From assembly GCF_013359725.1 (NCBI RefSeq), contig NZ_JABFMW010000002.1, positions 310,001 to 374,000 on the forward strand: 64,000 bases of DNA. Direction: 5' to 3'. The DNA is from Pseudarthrobacter sp. C4D7. Its GTDB lineage: Bacteria; Actinomycetota; Actinomycetes; Actinomycetales; Micrococcaceae. A program made the translations under genes and the position numbers. The notes under the pieces were generated by a model. It ran no database searches. It worked only from the letters and a program-made list of their open reading frames with translations, and was not told the origin of the DNA. This document shows, piece after piece, positions 4,924 to 62,402 of this stretch (the stretch's first letter is position 1; each line of letters starts with the position of its first letter).

Positions 4924-4999
4924 GGCCCCATCGTATAGCGGCCTAGTACGCTGCCCTCTCACGGCGGTAACGCGGGTTCGAATCCCGCTGGGGTCACCA
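4924..4999 (+). tRNA. tRNA-Glu (anticodon CTC)
   Basis: A 76-base gene including an encoded CCA (4997-4999). The acceptor arms are GGCCCCA (4924-4930) and TGGGGTC (4989-4995), with one G-T pair and discriminator A4996. The anticodon loop CTCTCAC carries CTC at 4958-4960, and the T-arm carries GGTTCGAATC. Unlike the neighbouring tRNA-Gln it encodes its own CCA end. Confidence 0.96.
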
Positions 5000-5003
5000 A
5001 TAT

Positions 5004-5043
5004 AAATGGTCCCGGGCAACTGCCCGGGGCCATTTCTGTTTCC
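5004..5043 (+). terminator. Rho-independent terminator after tRNA-Glu
   Basis: A 15-bp stem (5004-5018 with 5021-5035, one G-T pair) closed by a two-base AC gap is followed by TCTGTTT. It directly follows the tRNA-Glu CCA end. Confidence 0.85.
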
Positions 5044-48458: not shown

Positions 48459-48496
48459 CAGGACGGGCGGGAACCGAAAGGTTCCCGCCCGTCCTG
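48459..48496. terminator. Strong hairpin terminator between glnK and the zwf-like gene
   Basis: A perfect 17-bp stem (48459-48475 with 48480-48496) with a GAAA tetraloop. It is followed by a short T-rich TCTGTCGTT on the plus strand and can serve both convergent genes. Confidence 0.85.
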
Positions 48497-56604: not shown

Positions 56605-57057
56605 ATGGGCTTCACCGAAATCTTTGTCGCCACCCATGAGGCCGCGCTGAAGCGCGCCGGCAACCTTGATGCAGGACGCGGCTCTGCGGACGGCGCGGCG
56701 GCCGGCCAGTCCGTGCGGATCCAGGGCATCAGCGACTTTGAGGTGGAGCAGCTCGGCGATCTCGCCGGGATCGCCGTCCATGCCGGGGGAGCGGACTACG
56801 AATTGACCATGGTGGACGTCGCCAGCGACTCCCTCCTGGCCGTGCCGCCGGCCATGGTCCGCGCCCTGGCCGACCTGCTTACCTACGAAACCGAAGGTGA
56901 CGGCAACGTCCTTGATGACGTAGCCGAACAATGGGCCGCCCAGGAAGACATGCCGTTTGGTGCCGCCCAGGCGCGGACCTACGTGCAGCAGCTTGCAGAG
57001 CTTGCGGCCGGACTCAACGAGTCGGAGCGGACGGGGCTGTACGTCTGGTCCGCTTGA
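56605..57057 (+). CDS. Conserved hypothetical protein
   Basis: 150-residue soluble, acidic, Ala-rich protein that I do not recognise. It has no signal peptide, no membrane segment and no cysteines. The N-terminal GFTEIFVATHEAALKRA and the central ISDFEVEQLGDLAGIAV segments look like the conserved parts. The start is chosen for the GAAGAAGGG sequence ten bases ahead. A 7-bp hairpin (57066-57090) after the stop may be its terminator. It is not part of the rpsP operon, which has its own leader. Confidence 0.7.
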   Translation: MGFTEIFVATHEAALKRAGNLDAGRGSADGAAAGQSVRIQGISDFEVEQLGDLAGIAVHAGGADYELTMVDVASDSLLAVPPAMVRALADLLTYETEGDGNVLDDVAEQWAAQEDMPFGAAQARTYVQQLAELAAGLNESERTGLYVWSA

Positions 57058-57065
57058 CCCTCCGG

Positions 57066-57090
57066 GCCCGCAAGGCTCCTCCATGCGGGC
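57066..57090 (+). terminator. Weak hairpin after the 56605 gene
   Basis: GCCCGCA (57066-57072) pairs with TGCGGGC (57084-57090) across an 11-base loop, with no T-tract. The rest of the 243-base gap to rpsP holds the AT-rich GCACAATAAACAGG near 57160, a possible promoter, and an AGGAG before rpsP. Confidence 0.35.
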
Positions 57091-57300
57091 AACCGGCAGC
57101 CTTCCGGCCGTGCGCGGCGCCACGCAGGGTGCCGCCAAGTCGAAATAAGTGCGCTCATCTGGCACAATAAACAGGTACTCGATCTGCGTGGCCCCTCTCT
57201 CCGCGTCCGGATCCTGTCCTTTGAGCCCGCAAGTATGGCCCGCCCCACGGGTGCAGAAAGCCGGGTTCACCCCTTTTCTGAAACAGGAGTGACCACAAAA

Positions 57301-57723
57301 GTGGCCGTAAAGATTCGCCTTAAGCGCTTCGGCAAGATGCGCGCCCCGTACTACCGCATCGTCGTCGCGGACTCACGCACCAAGCGTGACGGCCGCGCCA
57401 TCGAGGAAATCGGCAAGTACCACCCCACCGAAGAGCCCTCGTTCATCGAGGTCAACTCCGAGCGTGCACAGTACTGGCTCTCCGTCGGCGCCCAGCCGTC
57501 CGAGCAGGTTGCCGCCATCCTGAAGATCACCGGTGACTGGCAGAAGTTCAAGGGCCTGCCGGGCCAGGAAGGCACCCTCAAGACCAAGGTCGCGAAGGAA
57601 GCTTTCGTTGCCCCGGAGAAGGGCTCGGTCATCATCCCGGAAGCCATCACCAAGAAGGCTTCCAAGTCTGACGCTGCCGAGGCTCCGGCCGACGCCGAAG
57701 CTGAGACCACCGAGGCTGAGTAA
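57301..57723 (+). CDS. rpsP: 30S ribosomal protein S16
   Basis: 140-residue S16 with the conserved [19 protein letters not shown] beginning and an Ala/Glu-rich tail of about 40 residues beyond the usual domain, typical of actinobacteria. GTG 57301 is chosen over in-frame upstream starts because it begins the family N-terminus; AGGAG lies 11 bases ahead. It is the first gene of rpsP-khpA-rimM-trmD, joining small-subunit assembly with tRNA modification. Confidence 0.96.
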
Positions 57724-57724
57724 C

Positions 57725-57967
57725 TTGCTGGCAGAAGCGCTGGAGCACCTGGTCCGCGGAATCGTTGATTCCCCGGACGACGTCAAGGTCAGTTCGAAGA
57801 GCAACCGCCGCGGGGACACCCTCGAGGTGCGTGTTCACCAGGACGACCTCGGACGGGTGATCGGCCGCCAGGGCCGCACGGCACGCGCACTGCGCACCGT
57901 GGTAGCTGCACTGGCCGGCGGCGAACCGGTAAGGGTCGACGTCGTCGACACCGACCGCCGCCGCTGA
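57725..57967 (+). CDS. khpA: KH-domain RNA-binding protein KhpA
   Basis: 80-residue single KH-domain protein with the GxxG loop in VIGRQGRTARALRTV. It begins with TTG one base after the rpsP stop, so it is translationally coupled. In Firmicutes KhpA pairs with KhpB/Jag and affects cell size and mRNA levels; in actinobacteria the gene sits between rpsP and rimM as here. A strong hairpin with a T-tract follows. Confidence 0.92.
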   Translation: MLAEALEHLVRGIVDSPDDVKVSSKSNRRGDTLEVRVHQDDLGRVIGRQGRTARALRTVVAALAGGEPVRVDVVDTDRRR

Positions 57968-57990
57968 GCGCTCGGCAACACCAGTTTTCG

Positions 57991-58032
57991 CTCCGGCCCC
58001 TCCACCATCAGGTGGAGGGGCCGGAGTTCTTT
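57991..58032 (+). terminator. Terminator or attenuator between khpA and rimM
   Basis: A perfect 16-bp stem (57991-58006 with 58011-58026) with an ATCA loop is followed by TTCTTT. It lies inside an otherwise conserved ribosomal operon and would cut or tune readthrough from rpsP-khpA into rimM-trmD. Confidence 0.85.
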
Positions 58033-58083
58033 CACAGCAGGGTGCTTTCAGTTGAAACACCCCAACCCGGAACAGAGGAACAG

Positions 58084-58629
58084 ATGCAGCTTCAGGTGGC
58101 ACGGATTGGCAAGCCGCACGGCATTCGTGGGGAAGTCACCGTCCAGGTGTTGACCGACGCCCCGGAGGACAGGTTTGTCCCCGGAACCGAGTTCGTGGTT
58201 GAGCCTGCGGCGTCAGGTCCCCTGACCGTCAGCAGTGCCCGCTGGAACAAGGACATCCTGCTGCTCGGTTTTGAGGAGATAGCGGACCGGAACCAGGCCG
58301 AGACCCTCCGCGGAGCCAAGCTCTTCATCGAGACCGAAGAGCTGGACGAGGACGACGACGAGGGCTGGTATGAACACGAGTTGGTCGGCCTTGAAGCCCG
58401 CGTCGGGTCCCAGGTGGTGGGCAAGGTGTCAGCGCTGAACACCATGCCCGTCCAGGACCTGCTGGTGGTCACCACCCCGGCCGGCGACGAGATCCTGATC
58501 CCGTTCGTGGAGCAGATCGTTCCCGAGGTGAACATCGAGGACGGCTTCATTCTCCTCACCCCGCCGGACGGTCTCTTCGCTGTCAACGCGGACGACGCCG
58601 CTGCACCGGAAGCCGAAGGCAGCGACTAG
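58084..58629 (+). CDS. rimM: Ribosome maturation factor RimM
   Basis: 181-residue 16S rRNA processing factor that binds S19 during 30S maturation. The N-terminal RimM domain starts with MQLQVARIGKPHGIRGEV, and the PRC-barrel domain carries ALNTMPVQDLLVV and ILIPFV. ATG 58084 has AGAGGAAC just upstream; the open frame before it runs through the terminator and is not coding. trmD follows with no gap. Confidence 0.96.
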   Translation: MQLQVARIGKPHGIRGEVTVQVLTDAPEDRFVPGTEFVVEPAASGPLTVSSARWNKDILLLGFEEIADRNQAETLRGAKLFIETEELDEDDDEGWYEHELVGLEARVGSQVVGKVSALNTMPVQDLLVVTTPAGDEILIPFVEQIVPEVNIEDGFILLTPPDGLFAVNADDAAAPEAEGSD

Positions 58630-59442
58630 ATGCGGATCGACGTCGTCAGCATCTTCCCCGAATACCTTGCCCCGCTTGAACTCTCGCTGATCGGCAAGGC
58701 CCGCCAGGACGGCATCCTGGACCTGCACGTCCACGACCTGCGCAGCTTCACCACCGACAAGCACCGTTCCGTTGACGACACCCCTTACGGCGGTGGCGCC
58801 GGCATGGTCATGAAACCCGAGCCCTGGGCGCAGGCCCTTTCGGCGGTGGCCGACGGCCGCCCGGACCCGGACCGCAGGCCCGTACTGATTGTCCCCTCGC
58901 CGGCAGGCGAACGGTTCACCCAGGCCCTTGCCTACGAACTGGCCGAGGAACAGCACCTCGCATTTGCGTGCGGGCGGTACGAGGGCATCGATGAGCGGGT
59001 CATTGAGTGGGCTCAGGAGCACTTCACCGTCCGGCCCGTCAGCCTGGGTGACTACGTCCTCAATGGCGGGGAAGTGGCGGTCCTGGCCATGGTGGAGGCC
59101 ATCGGCCGCCTGCTGCCCGGCGTGGTGGGCAACCCCGAATCACTGGTGGAGGAATCCCATTCCGATGGGCTGCTGGAGTATCCGGTCTACACCAAGCCCT
59201 CCGTCTGGCGGGACCGGGAGGTGCCCCCGGTGCTCCTCAGCGGCAACCACGGCAAAATCGCGCAGTGGCGCCGCCATGAACAGTACCGCCGGACCGCGCA
59301 GCGCCGTCCGGACCTCCTGGAAGGGTTCGACGCCGGCAAACTTCCGCGTGCAGACCGCACAGAGCTGCACAACCTGGGCTACGACGTCGTGAACGGCACG
59401 CTTGCCCGCCGCCCCGGCACGGCAGGCGAACAACAGGATTAG
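58630..59442 (+). CDS. trmD: tRNA (guanine(37)-N1)-methyltransferase
   Basis: 270-residue SPOUT-class enzyme methylating G37 next to the anticodon, needed to prevent +1 frameshifts. The SAM-binding knot motifs [11 protein letters not shown] and [11 protein letters not shown] and the [11 protein letters not shown] loop are intact. It starts at the base after the rimM stop. Confidence 0.97.
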
Positions 59443-59452
59443 CGCCGGCGAA

Positions 59453-59481
59453 TTGGCGTAACACAGCCGCTGTGGCAAAAT
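59453..59481 (+). promoter_or_regulatory. Promoter of rplS
   Basis: TTGGCG (59453-59458) and CAAAAT (59476-59481) with a 17-base spacer. The spacer contains the palindrome CACAGC-C-GCTGTG (59462-59474), which could be a regulator site or chance. Confidence 0.6.
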
Positions 59482-59487
59482 TAACCC

Positions 59488-59676
59488 TTGTGTCTGCTGG
59501 GTCCGCACCTGCCACAGGGGGTAGCGCGGCCAACAGCTGGGCAACCGGCCCCATCAATCCTTGAAGCGGCCGGAGACTTTACTTCGGCGGTGAGACCCCG
59601 GCCTGCACTCCAGCAGCCGGACTTGCCTGCCGTGACCCAAAGTGAATGACCTGTGGCGTTCACCAGGAGTGCAATC
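59488..59676 (+). promoter_or_regulatory. Long 5' leader of rplS
   Basis: About 190 bases separate the predicted start of transcription from the rplS ATG. No gene is seen in it. Ribosomal-protein leaders often bind their own product; whether this one folds into a known L19 leader cannot be judged by eye. AGGAG at 59665-59669 is the Shine-Dalgarno. Confidence 0.4.
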
Positions 59677-60036
59677 ATGCATATTCTCGACTCCGTCGAT
59701 GCAGCCTCGCTGCGCAACGATGTTCCCGCCTTCCGCGCGGGTGACACCCTCAAGGTGCACGTGAACATCATCGAAGGCAAGAACACCCGTGTCCAGGTCT
59801 TCCAGGGCTTCGTCCTGGGCCGCCAGGGCGATGGCGTGCGCGAAACCTTCACCGTCCGCAAGGTTTCCTTCGGTGTTGGCGTGGAGCGCACCTTCCCGGT
59901 GCACTCCCCGATCATCGAAAAGATCGAGGTTGTCACCAAGGGTGACGTCCGCCGTGCCAAGCTGTACTACATGCGTGCACTGCGCGGCAAGGCCGCCAAG
60001 ATCAAGGAAAAGCGCGACTTCAGCTCCGCCAAGTAA
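59677..60036 (+). CDS. rplS: 50S ribosomal protein L19
   Basis: 119-residue L19, at the 30S-50S interface. The N-terminal [13 protein letters not shown] and the [11 protein letters not shown] and [13 protein letters not shown] blocks are conserved. ATG 59677 is preferred to 59653 since it has AGGAG seven bases ahead. The gene is separated from trmD by its own promoter and leader, and its terminator lies inside the next gene. Confidence 0.97.
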
Positions 60037-60120
60037 GTCCGTTCCGGATTTACCGTCAGGCTGGAGCGCGGCCGTAGCCGGCAAGCGCCGGAGCAATGCA
60101 CCAGCGCCAGGATACGGACC

Positions 60121-60798
60121 ATGCACCAGACAAAACGCCAGCCCCGCAAAATGGGCTGGCGTTTTGTTTTTCTGGCCCTGCTCCTTGCCGTTGCCATCAG
60201 CGGGCTGGTCAGGTCCCTGTGGCTTGATGTCTACTTCATACCCTCCGAATCCATGGAGCCGCTCCTGGAAGGCGGGGACAGGATCCTGGTTTCGCGCACC
60301 GACTTCCAGGCCGAGCCTATCCGGCGTGGGGACGTGGTGGTCTTTGACGGGCGCGGCAGCTTCGCGCCCCTGAACAGCGGCAAGGGCCCGCTGCTGGACG
60401 CAGCAGCTTCTGCGATGCAGTGGGTGGGGCTGGCCGGCAGCGACACAACCTATGTCAAACGGGCAATCGGCCTGCCTGGCGACACCGTCGTCTGCTGCGA
60501 TGCCGGCGGAAAAGTCACTGTCAACGGCACAGCGCTGGAGGAGCCGTACATCTTCCCCGGCGACGCGCCCAGCACGCAAAAATTCAGCACCGTGGTTCCC
60601 GAGGGCAGGCTGTGGCTGATGGGGGACCACAGGTCGGTTTCCGCCGATTCACGCAGCCTGCTCGGCGCGCCCGGCGGCGGGCTCGTCCCGATGGACCGGG
60701 TAATCGGCAGGCCGGTCCAGATCCTCTGGCCGCTTGATAGATTTGCCCCAGTAGCACGGCCGCCCGTACCGGGGCCGACAACACAGAACGGACGGTAA
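60121..60798 (+). CDS. lepB: Signal peptidase I (first copy)
   Basis: 225-residue membrane peptidase that cleaves signal peptides from exported proteins. A membrane segment at about 12-32 precedes the catalytic Ser44 in PSESM and Lys113 in YVKRAIGLPGD; the GDHRSVSADSR box replaces the usual GDNRxxSxDSR. AGGA lies eight bases before ATG 60121. Codons 4-15 lie in the rplS terminator hairpin, so either ribosomes entering here melt it, or the true start is ATG 60151 inside it. The second copy starts at the base after its stop. Confidence 0.95.
   Translation: MHQTKRQPRKMGWRFVFLALLLAVAISGLVRSLWLDVYFIPSESMEPLLEGGDRILVSRTDFQAEPIRRGDVVVFDGRGSFAPLNSGKGPLLDAAASAMQWVGLAGSDTTYVKRAIGLPGDTVVCCDAGGKVTVNGTALEEPYIFPGDAPSTQKFSTVVPEGRLWLMGDHRSVSADSRSLLGAPGGGLVPMDRVIGRPVQILWPLDRFAPVARPPVPGPTTQNGR
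60132..60172 (+). terminator. Rho-independent terminator of rplS inside the lepB start
   Basis: AAAACGCCAGCCC (60132-60144) pairs perfectly with GGGCTGGCGTTTT (60153-60165) over an eight-base loop, followed by GTTTTTC. It is a classical terminator by shape, yet it is translated as the beginning of LepB. Confidence 0.85.
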
Positions 60799-61614
60799 AT
60801 GCCCGAGAACCACGCGCGGAAACCTGAACCCCGCCACGACGGTGCTTCAGAGATACCGGACGTTCCAGCTTCCGCCGCTCCCGGCGAAGACGCGGCACAA
60901 CCGGCACCCGCCCAGAAGCGGAACCGGCAGGCGTCCAAAGCCGCGGGCAACCCCCTGCTGGGATGGCTGAAGGAAATTGCCACCGTGGTGGTCATCGCGG
61001 TGGTGCTGTCCTTCCTCATCAAGACGTTCCTGTTCCGGGCCTTCTTCATTCCGTCCGAATCCATGGTGAACACCCTGGACGTTGATGACCGGATCTTCGT
61101 CAACCTCCTGGTCCCGGAACCCTTCGCCCTCAGCCGGGGAGACGTTGTGGTCTTCCGCGACACCAAGGGCTGGCTGGGACCGGCCCCGGCCAAGGTGCAG
61201 GGCCCGTTCACCTGGGTCCAGGACGGCCTCACCTTCGTCGGCCTCCTGCCCGACAATTCCGAGCAGCACCTGGTCAAACGCGTCATCGGACTGCCCGGGG
61301 ACCACGTGGTCTGCTGCGACGCCGGAGGTAAACTGACCATCAACGGAACCGCCGTTGACGAGGCCTACATCAACCCCGCCGAAGTCCCGCAGGTCCGAAA
61401 CTTTGACGTCACCGTACCGGAGGGCAAGGTGTGGGTGATGGGTGATAACCGGAACCACTCGGCGGACTCCCGCGCGCACATGGAAACCGACGGCGGATTC
61501 GTCGACCTCAAGGACCTCGAAGGAAAAGCCGCCATCATCGCCTGGCCGCTGAACAGGATCAAGACCCTCGACAACTACCCGGACGTCTTCAAGAACGTCC
61601 CGGCGGCCCGCTGA
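60799..61614 (+). CDS. lepB: Signal peptidase I (second copy)
   Basis: 271-residue signal peptidase with a longer cytoplasmic N-terminal extension (about 55 charged and Pro/Ala-rich residues), a membrane segment at about 58-80, catalytic Ser88 in PSESM and Lys160 in [11 protein letters not shown], and the canonical [11 protein letters not shown] box. It directly follows the first copy without a gap. Both keep their catalytic dyad, so both should be active, perhaps on different preproteins. rnhB starts two bases after its stop. Confidence 0.96.
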
Positions 61615-61616
61615 CC

Positions 61617-62402
61617 ATGTCGTCCGCAGTACAGGCCTCCCCAGCCAGCTCAGCGCGTCCGGCCCGCAAGCCTGCGGCCGGAGGAACGAAGGCGCCAACG
61701 CTGCGGCACGAGCGGACCTTCAAGGCCCAGGGAATCCAGTTACTCGCCGGCGTTGACGAAGTCGGCCGCGGCGCCCTTGCCGGACCGGTGAGCGTGGGGA
61801 TCGCCGTCGTGGACCTGGAACGCCAAAAACCGCTCGCCGGTGTGCGCGACAGCAAGCTCTTGAGTCCGGCCGAGCGGGAGCGGCTGGATCCGCTGGTGCG
61901 CCGCTGGAGCGTCGCCTCCGCGGTGGGGCACGCCTCCGCCGGCGAGATCGATTCGCTCGGCATCATCGCCGCCCTGCGGCTGGCCGGCAACCGCGCGTGG
62001 AGCAGCATCCTGGGCTCGGGGATTGTCCCGGAAGCTGTCCTGCTGGATGGAAGCCACAACTGGCTGTCCCCGGCGGAGCAACTCTCGCTGTTTGACCAGC
62101 CCGTGCTGGAAACCGTGTGCGAAGCCCCGGTCCACACCAAGGTCAAGGCCGACATGCAGTGCCTCAGCGTGGCCGCCGCAAGCGTCATCGCCAAGGTGGA
62201 GCGGGACCGGATGATGCGTGACCTTCATACCGAATTCCCGGATTACGGCTGGGACGTCAACAAGGGGTACGCCACCGCGGCCCACCGGAACGTGCTTCGC
62301 GCAGCGGGACCCACGCCGTACCACCGGGTCAGCTGGCGGCTTCTCGGCGGGGAACTGCAGGACGCGGGAGTCCCCGGCCTGGAGGGGCCCAGCGACGACT
62401 GA
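61617..62402 (+). CDS. rnhB: Ribonuclease HII
   Basis: 261-residue endonuclease removing ribonucleotides from DNA-RNA hybrids. The catalytic acidic residues are Asp47-Glu48 in GVDEVGRG, with a further Asp in LLDGSHNW and one in [19 protein letters not shown]. An N-terminal Ala/Pro-rich extension of about 35 residues lies outside the fold. It is in the lepB operon. Confidence 0.96.

Follow-up and report, generated by a model that had tools for sequence, protein, structure and literature searches.

A terminator-like hairpin behind rplS lies within the first codons of the signal peptidase gene lepB in Pseudarthrobacter sp. C4D7

In Pseudarthrobacter sp. C4D7, comparison of the rplS-lepB junction with its relatives points to a hairpin that is probably the intrinsic terminator (attenuator) of the rplS transcript and that lies inside the first codons of lepB, not in the gap between the two genes. 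As proposed, an RNA polymerase moving past rplS would form the CGCCAGCCC/GGGCTGGCG stem, and the outer A-U pairs together with the following U-run would make up the release site, near positions 60166 to 60172 of the window (the whole stretch of 64,000 nucleotides that was analyzed). A large share of the RNAs would end at these positions, and the readthrough share would feed lepB and the genes that follow. As the gap is short and lepB begins in it, the terminator would at the same time be codons 4 to 17. We infer that RNA ends at the hairpin, that a share continues past it, and that the terminator, more than translation, determines the level. Since one hairpin can serve several roles, the likelihoods of the terminator reading and of its rivals overlap. 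The features of the junction are listed in Table 1.

Table 1. Positions of the junction features, numbered along the window
Feature	Positions	Strand	Evidence or remark
rplS, ribosomal protein L19	59677-60036	+	TIGR01024, E 8.9e-48; ORF
AGGA, Shine-Dalgarno-like, 8 nt before ATG 60121	60109-60112	+	Sequence
lepB, signal peptidase I, 225 aa, start ATG 60121	60121-60798	+	ORF; TIGR02227, E 4.7e-34
Hairpin 5' arm, codons 4-8 (T K R Q P)	60130-60144	+	Inverted-repeat match; pair counts on alignment A1
Hairpin loop, 8 nt	60145-60152	+	GGAAAC (GNRA-like) or UUCG in many relatives
Hairpin 3' arm, last base of codon 11 to second base of codon 16 (G W R F V)	60153-60167	+	
U-tract TTTTGTTTTT, third base of Arg14 to Phe17, overlapping the outer 3' arm	60162-60171	+	

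The hairpin spans bases 10 to 47 of lepB, about 91 to 93 nt beyond the rplS stop codon, and it is in frame with lepB codons 4 to 17 (T K R Q P R K M G W R F V F). Its stem has 15 perfect pairs, or 17 with the outer A-U and G-U pairs added, and the U-rich tail, TTTTGTTTTTC, is composed of T4 (60162 to 60165), G, T5 (60167 to 60171) and C (60172), overlapping the 3' arm. A preliminary description of this DNA had noted a hairpin with an 8-nt loop and a tail within the lepB open reading frame, all of which are present, and had given the stem as 13 bp, which we correct to 15 bp. Folding of 91 nt gave -42 kcal/mol, compared with -25.6 ± 2.7 kcal/mol in 200 shuffles (z -6.0), none of which was as good. 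Perfect inverted repeats of at least 13 bp with a loop of 3 to 12 occur at only four places in the 64-kb window, and the pattern AACGCCAGCCC-N(3-20)-GGGCTGGCGTT at a single place in the 4.32-Mb genome. The loops found in many relatives, GNRA-like or UUCG, fit an RNA. A simple terminator scan omitted the lepB hairpin, probably because that scan counts T solely after the outermost pair. As for a known RNA family, an Rfam search of positions 57000 to 62000 yielded no match at gathering score; the match over the hairpin was Thr_leader, with 28.1 bits against a gathering score of 55 (E 0.03).

To place the lepB start, which follows rplS after a gap of 84 bases in the window, the junction was compared across a close group of 81 loci, namely the window and the best 80 of 166 loci. 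This group (g1, our own label) mixes genera, with loci titled Arthrobacter, Pseudarthrobacter and Paenarthrobacter and one Micrococcaceae MAG, and it leans towards the motif, since one of the six peptide patterns used in the search lies over the hairpin codons; L147 and L159 are apparently the same contig stretch. The start codon is ATG in 79 of the 81 loci and TTG in the other 2, and by a loose test a Shine-Dalgarno-like triplet (GGA, AGG or GGG) lies within 12 nt before it in every one, in keeping with the earlier choice of ATG 60121 with a good AGGA upstream. The alternative start that had been considered, ATG 60151, was ruled out, as the codon at that position is ATG in 16 of the 81 close loci and otherwise CAG, CCG, CTC and others. 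The comparison thus indicates that lepB starts at ATG 60121 and that a start at 60151 is not general. That the hairpin is coding, as claimed before, also agrees with these 81 loci, in which hairpin and codons are both kept. Within the gap, positions 60078 to 60094 hold a GCGCCGGAGC-like stretch and a weak CCGGC/GCCGG helix, present in most of 20 close relatives. lepB is one of two tandem signal peptidase I genes (60121 to 60798 and 60799 to 61614), and no comparable inverted repeat was listed at the start of the second.

The pairing itself was evaluated on an alignment of 105 distinct ungapped relatives (A1), in which 94.0% of 1,680 pair cells are paired. Both sides have changed in 11 of the 16 pairs, giving 126 such cells where shuffles gave 37.6 ± 4.8; when the partner register is shifted by 1 to 3 columns, pairing falls to 30 to 51%. 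A1 left out the 11 of 116 distinct hairpins that had other lengths, one of them (L342) spurious, and L179, L182 and L183 had been excluded beforehand; these four spurious rows are included in the pair table of 168 loci, whereas A1 and the terminator scores are free of them. The core pattern was unmatched in 8 of the 168 loci, which were dropped, although one of these, L215, still has the hairpin.

In the arms, third codon bases stand opposite third codon bases, so that silent changes can repair the structure. The third bases of Lys5 and Arg14 form A-U in 79 and G-C in 26 of the 105 sequences, and nothing else. Where codon 15 encodes Phe (n = 83), a partner A goes with TTT in 63 of 63 cases, and a partner G with TTC in 12 and with TTT, as a G-U pair, in 6; 2 are mismatched. 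On the rplS tree, two third-base pairs change at least 5 times (columns 8/35) and at least 24 times (columns 5/38). The independent pairs on supported branches number 3 for columns 8/35, 6 for columns 5/38 and 5 for columns 7/36; the partner moved in the same direction on average 3.0, 4.2 and 3.3 times, respectively, and never in the opposite one, although with so few independent events none of these is significant alone. Overall, the alignment indicates that the hairpin pairing is selected and that protein conservation alone does not yield the observed silent covariation. The comparison of the same junction in relatives, proposed earlier as a check, thus found both pairing and codons kept.

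The third-base positions that would form the U-tract were next compared with codon usage in the rest of lepB. Among the 81 close loci (the window and the best 80 of 166), Arg14 is CGT in all 81, against 13% of the Arg codons in the remaining lepB, and Phe15 is TTT in 79, against 19% elsewhere in the gene; codon 4 ends in A in 78, and the 9 bases after the core contain 5 to 8 T in all 81. G-C pairs would strengthen the stem and also match codon bias, suggesting that something asks for U; by this comparison the close group retains its U-tract in spite of codon bias. These results bear on one rival, that the hairpin only reflects conservation of a protein motif (K R Q/R P/S ... G W R F) and that its RNA has no role. 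The near invariance of GWR in the homologous set would agree with such a motif; however, synonymous third-base pairs covary, the rare codons CGT, TTT and NNA are nearly fixed, and lineages without the motif have different hairpins at the same place, so that this explanation is already contradicted and we give it practically no weight.

In other relatives the U-run is lost while the stem is kept. In genera such as g28 and g48, and in 25 loci of g24, the run is broken by G-C pairs and the stem stays, suggesting that the conserved core is the hairpin, which a protective or translation-lowering hairpin would fit as well. One such rival is a hairpin that protects or processes the 3' end, with transcripts ending farther down (by Rho or decay) and being trimmed back to a stem that shields the rplS mRNA. 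Hairpins without a U-run in some genera, and the regular place after rplS, agree with this unlikely reading, but trimming needs no U-tract, and yet the close group keeps one against codon bias. Weak U-tracts in some relatives need not mean that termination was lost, since Streptomyces terminators mapped by Term-seq are described, in an excerpt of PMC12207403, as having just 3 to 4 U per 10 nt and long stable stems.

A terminator score d of the d'Aubenton-Carafa type was positive for 156 of 156 homologous hairpins and for 17 of 18 non-homologous rplS hairpins, compared with 0 of 143 controls inside rplS. The window hairpin reached 49.4 with the outer A-U pairs counted as U-tract, and together with its GC-rich 15-bp stem and its U-tract this upholds, at the level of sequence, the earlier description of the hairpin as terminator-like. 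The intergenic family hairpin of L271 scored -14.6, which counts against the terminator reading. Sequence features expected of an intrinsic terminator are found at the junction: a GC-rich stable hairpin (15 bp perfect; z -6.0), a U-tract directly after the GC stem in the window and in all 81 close loci (the window and the best 80 of 166), which is absent from 25 of 25 lepB-adjacent g24 loci, and room for folding past the upstream stop codon (about 91 to 93 nt here; 18 to 97 nt in 58 of 59 family loci). For comparison, an excerpt of PMC4824070 states that folding ahead of a terminating ribosome needs 10 to 15 nt from the upstream stop.

The association with the end of rplS was examined in a family set of 58 loci, chosen to span genera among the 175 genomes, out of 197, that gave a match, and 22 of 23 further loci, one having been dropped for want of an rplS match. 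In all 80 distinct loci a hairpin follows rplS, with energies of -19.5 to -44.6 kcal/mol and one weaker than -20, which substantiates the tie to the rplS end claimed before. It is in a frame open into lepB in 70 and intergenic in 7, and in the remaining 3 the hairpin is homologous and no lepB was recognized in the short stretch; here, "in frame" means an open frame with a possible upstream start, which may occur by chance in GC-rich DNA, and the status of L269 is doubtful, its sister L267 being intergenic. Measured from the rplS stop in the window and 58 other family loci, the best hairpin starts after 18 to 97 nt in 58 of these 59; the exception, L188, has a different best hairpin at 121 nt. 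Eighteen of the 70 in-frame hairpins were not called homologous by the pattern; L215 has the same hairpin, L266 maybe a diverged one, and the others look different in sequence.

Across the order, 35 further loci (34 from other families and 1 from this family) had a best hairpin within 180 nt past the rplS stop with a median of -30.8 kcal/mol, compared with -16.4 kcal/mol for 83 overlapping control windows inside rplS. One of the 35, L222, lacks a strong hairpin after rplS (-13.1 kcal/mol) and counts against the terminator reading. In 34 distinct order loci the hairpin is intergenic in 23, in an open frame in 10 and without lepB in 1; five order loci had no rplS in the examined stretch. Within genus g24, 5 of 30 loci have a recognizable lepB more than 550 nt away, an intergenic hairpin and a T run of 4 to 5; the other 25 have lepB adjacent, the hairpin in frame and a longest T run of 3. 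On few independent events, we would say from these arrangements that the hairpin follows rplS and that lepB was laid over it. Two protein-binding roles were also considered and are disfavored: a sequence-specific protein site, as hairpins at the same place in other lineages differ in sequence, and a dimeric-repressor operator, given loops of 3 to 23 nt among homologous hairpins and a single genomic site of the pattern. Among individual loci, L189, from one genus, carries a loop insert able to pair with itself (CCGTGGC/GCCACGG) with the outer stem intact, and in L186 to L188 the conserved hairpin is immediately preceded by another inverted repeat, TTCCCCGG/CCGGGGAA, which seems to belong to a longer N-terminal extension of LepB.

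The distances within the close group would also fit another reading. In those loci (the window and the best 80 of 166) the core stem lies at a variable 20 to 141 nt from the rplS stop, and the first base of the start codon lies 10 nt from the 13-bp core stem in all 81. An element of the lepB start would show the same pattern, which speaks against a terminator. The corresponding rival is an early coding-sequence hairpin that sets lepB translation, the stem near the start lowering (or raising) initiation and so matching LepB to the need after a ribosomal protein gene; we regard it as possible, though doubtful. The fixed spacing, the very stable stem and the persistence of the stem where the U-tract is gone argue for it. 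Nevertheless, the spacing differs in other genera, where the nearest candidate start is 1 to 60 nt from the stem (all these starts being candidates), the hairpin remains by rplS where lepB is far away, and the close group keeps its U-tract against codon bias even though G-C pairs would make a stronger stem. Coding-sequence stem-loops of fepA and bamA, reportedly described by Jagodnik et al. in 2017, would be a precedent, the fepA stem being said to raise initiation; they share a stable hairpin a few nucleotides after the start codon, whereas the lepB hairpin goes with the end of the upstream gene and with a U-tract in the close group.

The preliminary description had gone further and proposed a translation-controlled switch, in which ribosomes that initiate on lepB melt the hairpin and RNA polymerase can pass, while untranslated RNA terminates, so that LepB tracks ribosome activity. 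With the core stem 10 nt from the start in all 81 close loci (the window and the best 80 of 166), a 30S subunit would probably touch the outer A-U pairs. Moreover, translation is reported to promote elongation in Mtb (excerpt of PMC10937400), and under tight coupling ribosomes prevent terminator hairpins (excerpt of PMC5021804). Against the switch, the nearest candidate start lies at varying distances from the stem in other genera, and no competing antiterminator fold was found: RNAalifold on 20 sequences of the gap and hairpin, with a poorly aligning gap, returned just the hairpin and a 5-bp gap helix in place of a mutually exclusive structure. A larger conserved structure with the gap was likewise rejected, as it came down to that 5-bp CCGGC/GCCGG helix.

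The most direct precedent also goes against a switch. In the passages of PMC4824070 drawn on here, Li et al. placed the terminator tR2 30 bp inside an E. coli open reading frame, where it works, and translation cut its efficiency by only about 10%, because the ribosome cannot catch RNA polymerase within the first ~100 bp; ribosomes instead suppress terminators near the upstream stop codon. Given this precedent, the missing antiterminator fold and the spacing that varies between genera, the switch claim is left unsupported and we consider it improbable. By the same E. coli precedent, the lepB hairpin should terminate with or without lepB translation, and readthrough would make LepB. Termination at the hairpin would leave an rplS mRNA that carries the lepB start without a stop codon, which is a cost; according to the same passages of PMC4824070, RNAs from the terminator inside the reading frame are non-stop messages, and expression of the upstream gene was about half. 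Lying 10 nt from the start, the stem might lessen this cost by hindering initiation on terminated RNA.

Set against known systems, the candidate rplS terminator resembles the intrinsic terminators of ribosomal protein transcripts in its GC-rich stem, its U-rich tail and its place 18 to 97 nt past the upstream stop (58 of 59 loci), and differs from them in lying inside the start of the next coding sequence, in its compensatory silent changes and in the loss of the U-run in several genera. It shares with the tR2 construct W48 (excerpt of PMC4824070) and with the 3' ends inside E. coli reading frames (excerpt of PMC7815308) a location ~10 to 50 nt inside the frame, where, according to the former, ribosomes cannot yet suppress a terminator; in contrast to these, the lepB case is natural, precedes a signal peptidase gene and is family-wide with covariation. 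Like the leader-peptide attenuators (pyrBI and amino-acid operons, cited in the excerpt of PMC4824070), its terminator RNA is also translated, but there is no leader peptide, no antiterminator fold was found and the translated gene is lepB itself. A title search of open-licence PMC literature, which does not prove absence, returned nothing on an rplS-lepB terminator junction, including Term-seq in Arthrobacter.

Taken together, a joint reading can be put forward tentatively, as a possible but by no means probable account, in which the rplS terminator largely writes the N-terminal tail of LepB. Here, rplS would need a hairpin at its end, lepB would have overgrown that hairpin more than once and with different sequences, and amino acids 4 to 16 would be set by third-to-third RNA pairing; since a terminated rplS RNA would carry a lepB start without a stop, the stem may in addition keep ribosomes off or sense their traffic. 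The junction itself is a natural example, found across a family, of a single stretch that is at once a terminator-like RNA structure and a protein code, and its silent covariation is the evidence that the pairing is selected. This raises the questions of how RNA polymerase gets past a terminator at the head of a translated gene often enough to express that gene, and of how far an RNA element can dictate a protein sequence. Searches for terminators or structured RNAs that are confined to intergenic regions would miss elements like the lepB hairpin.

Other inverted repeats were observed in the window. Upstream in the cluster, positions 57991 to 58026 hold another strong terminator-like element, a perfect hairpin of 16 bp followed by a TTCTTTC tail (d 56.3), located between what we take to be the rpsP region and the probable start of rimM. 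A terminator-like hairpin with d 50.2 lies at positions 5007 to 5032, directly after a tRNA-Glu gene (4924 to 4999). Finally, a perfect inverted repeat of 17 bp, whose loop is GAAA and whose tail is poor in U, occupies positions 48459 to 48496, antisense to a mechanically called 245-aa ORF.
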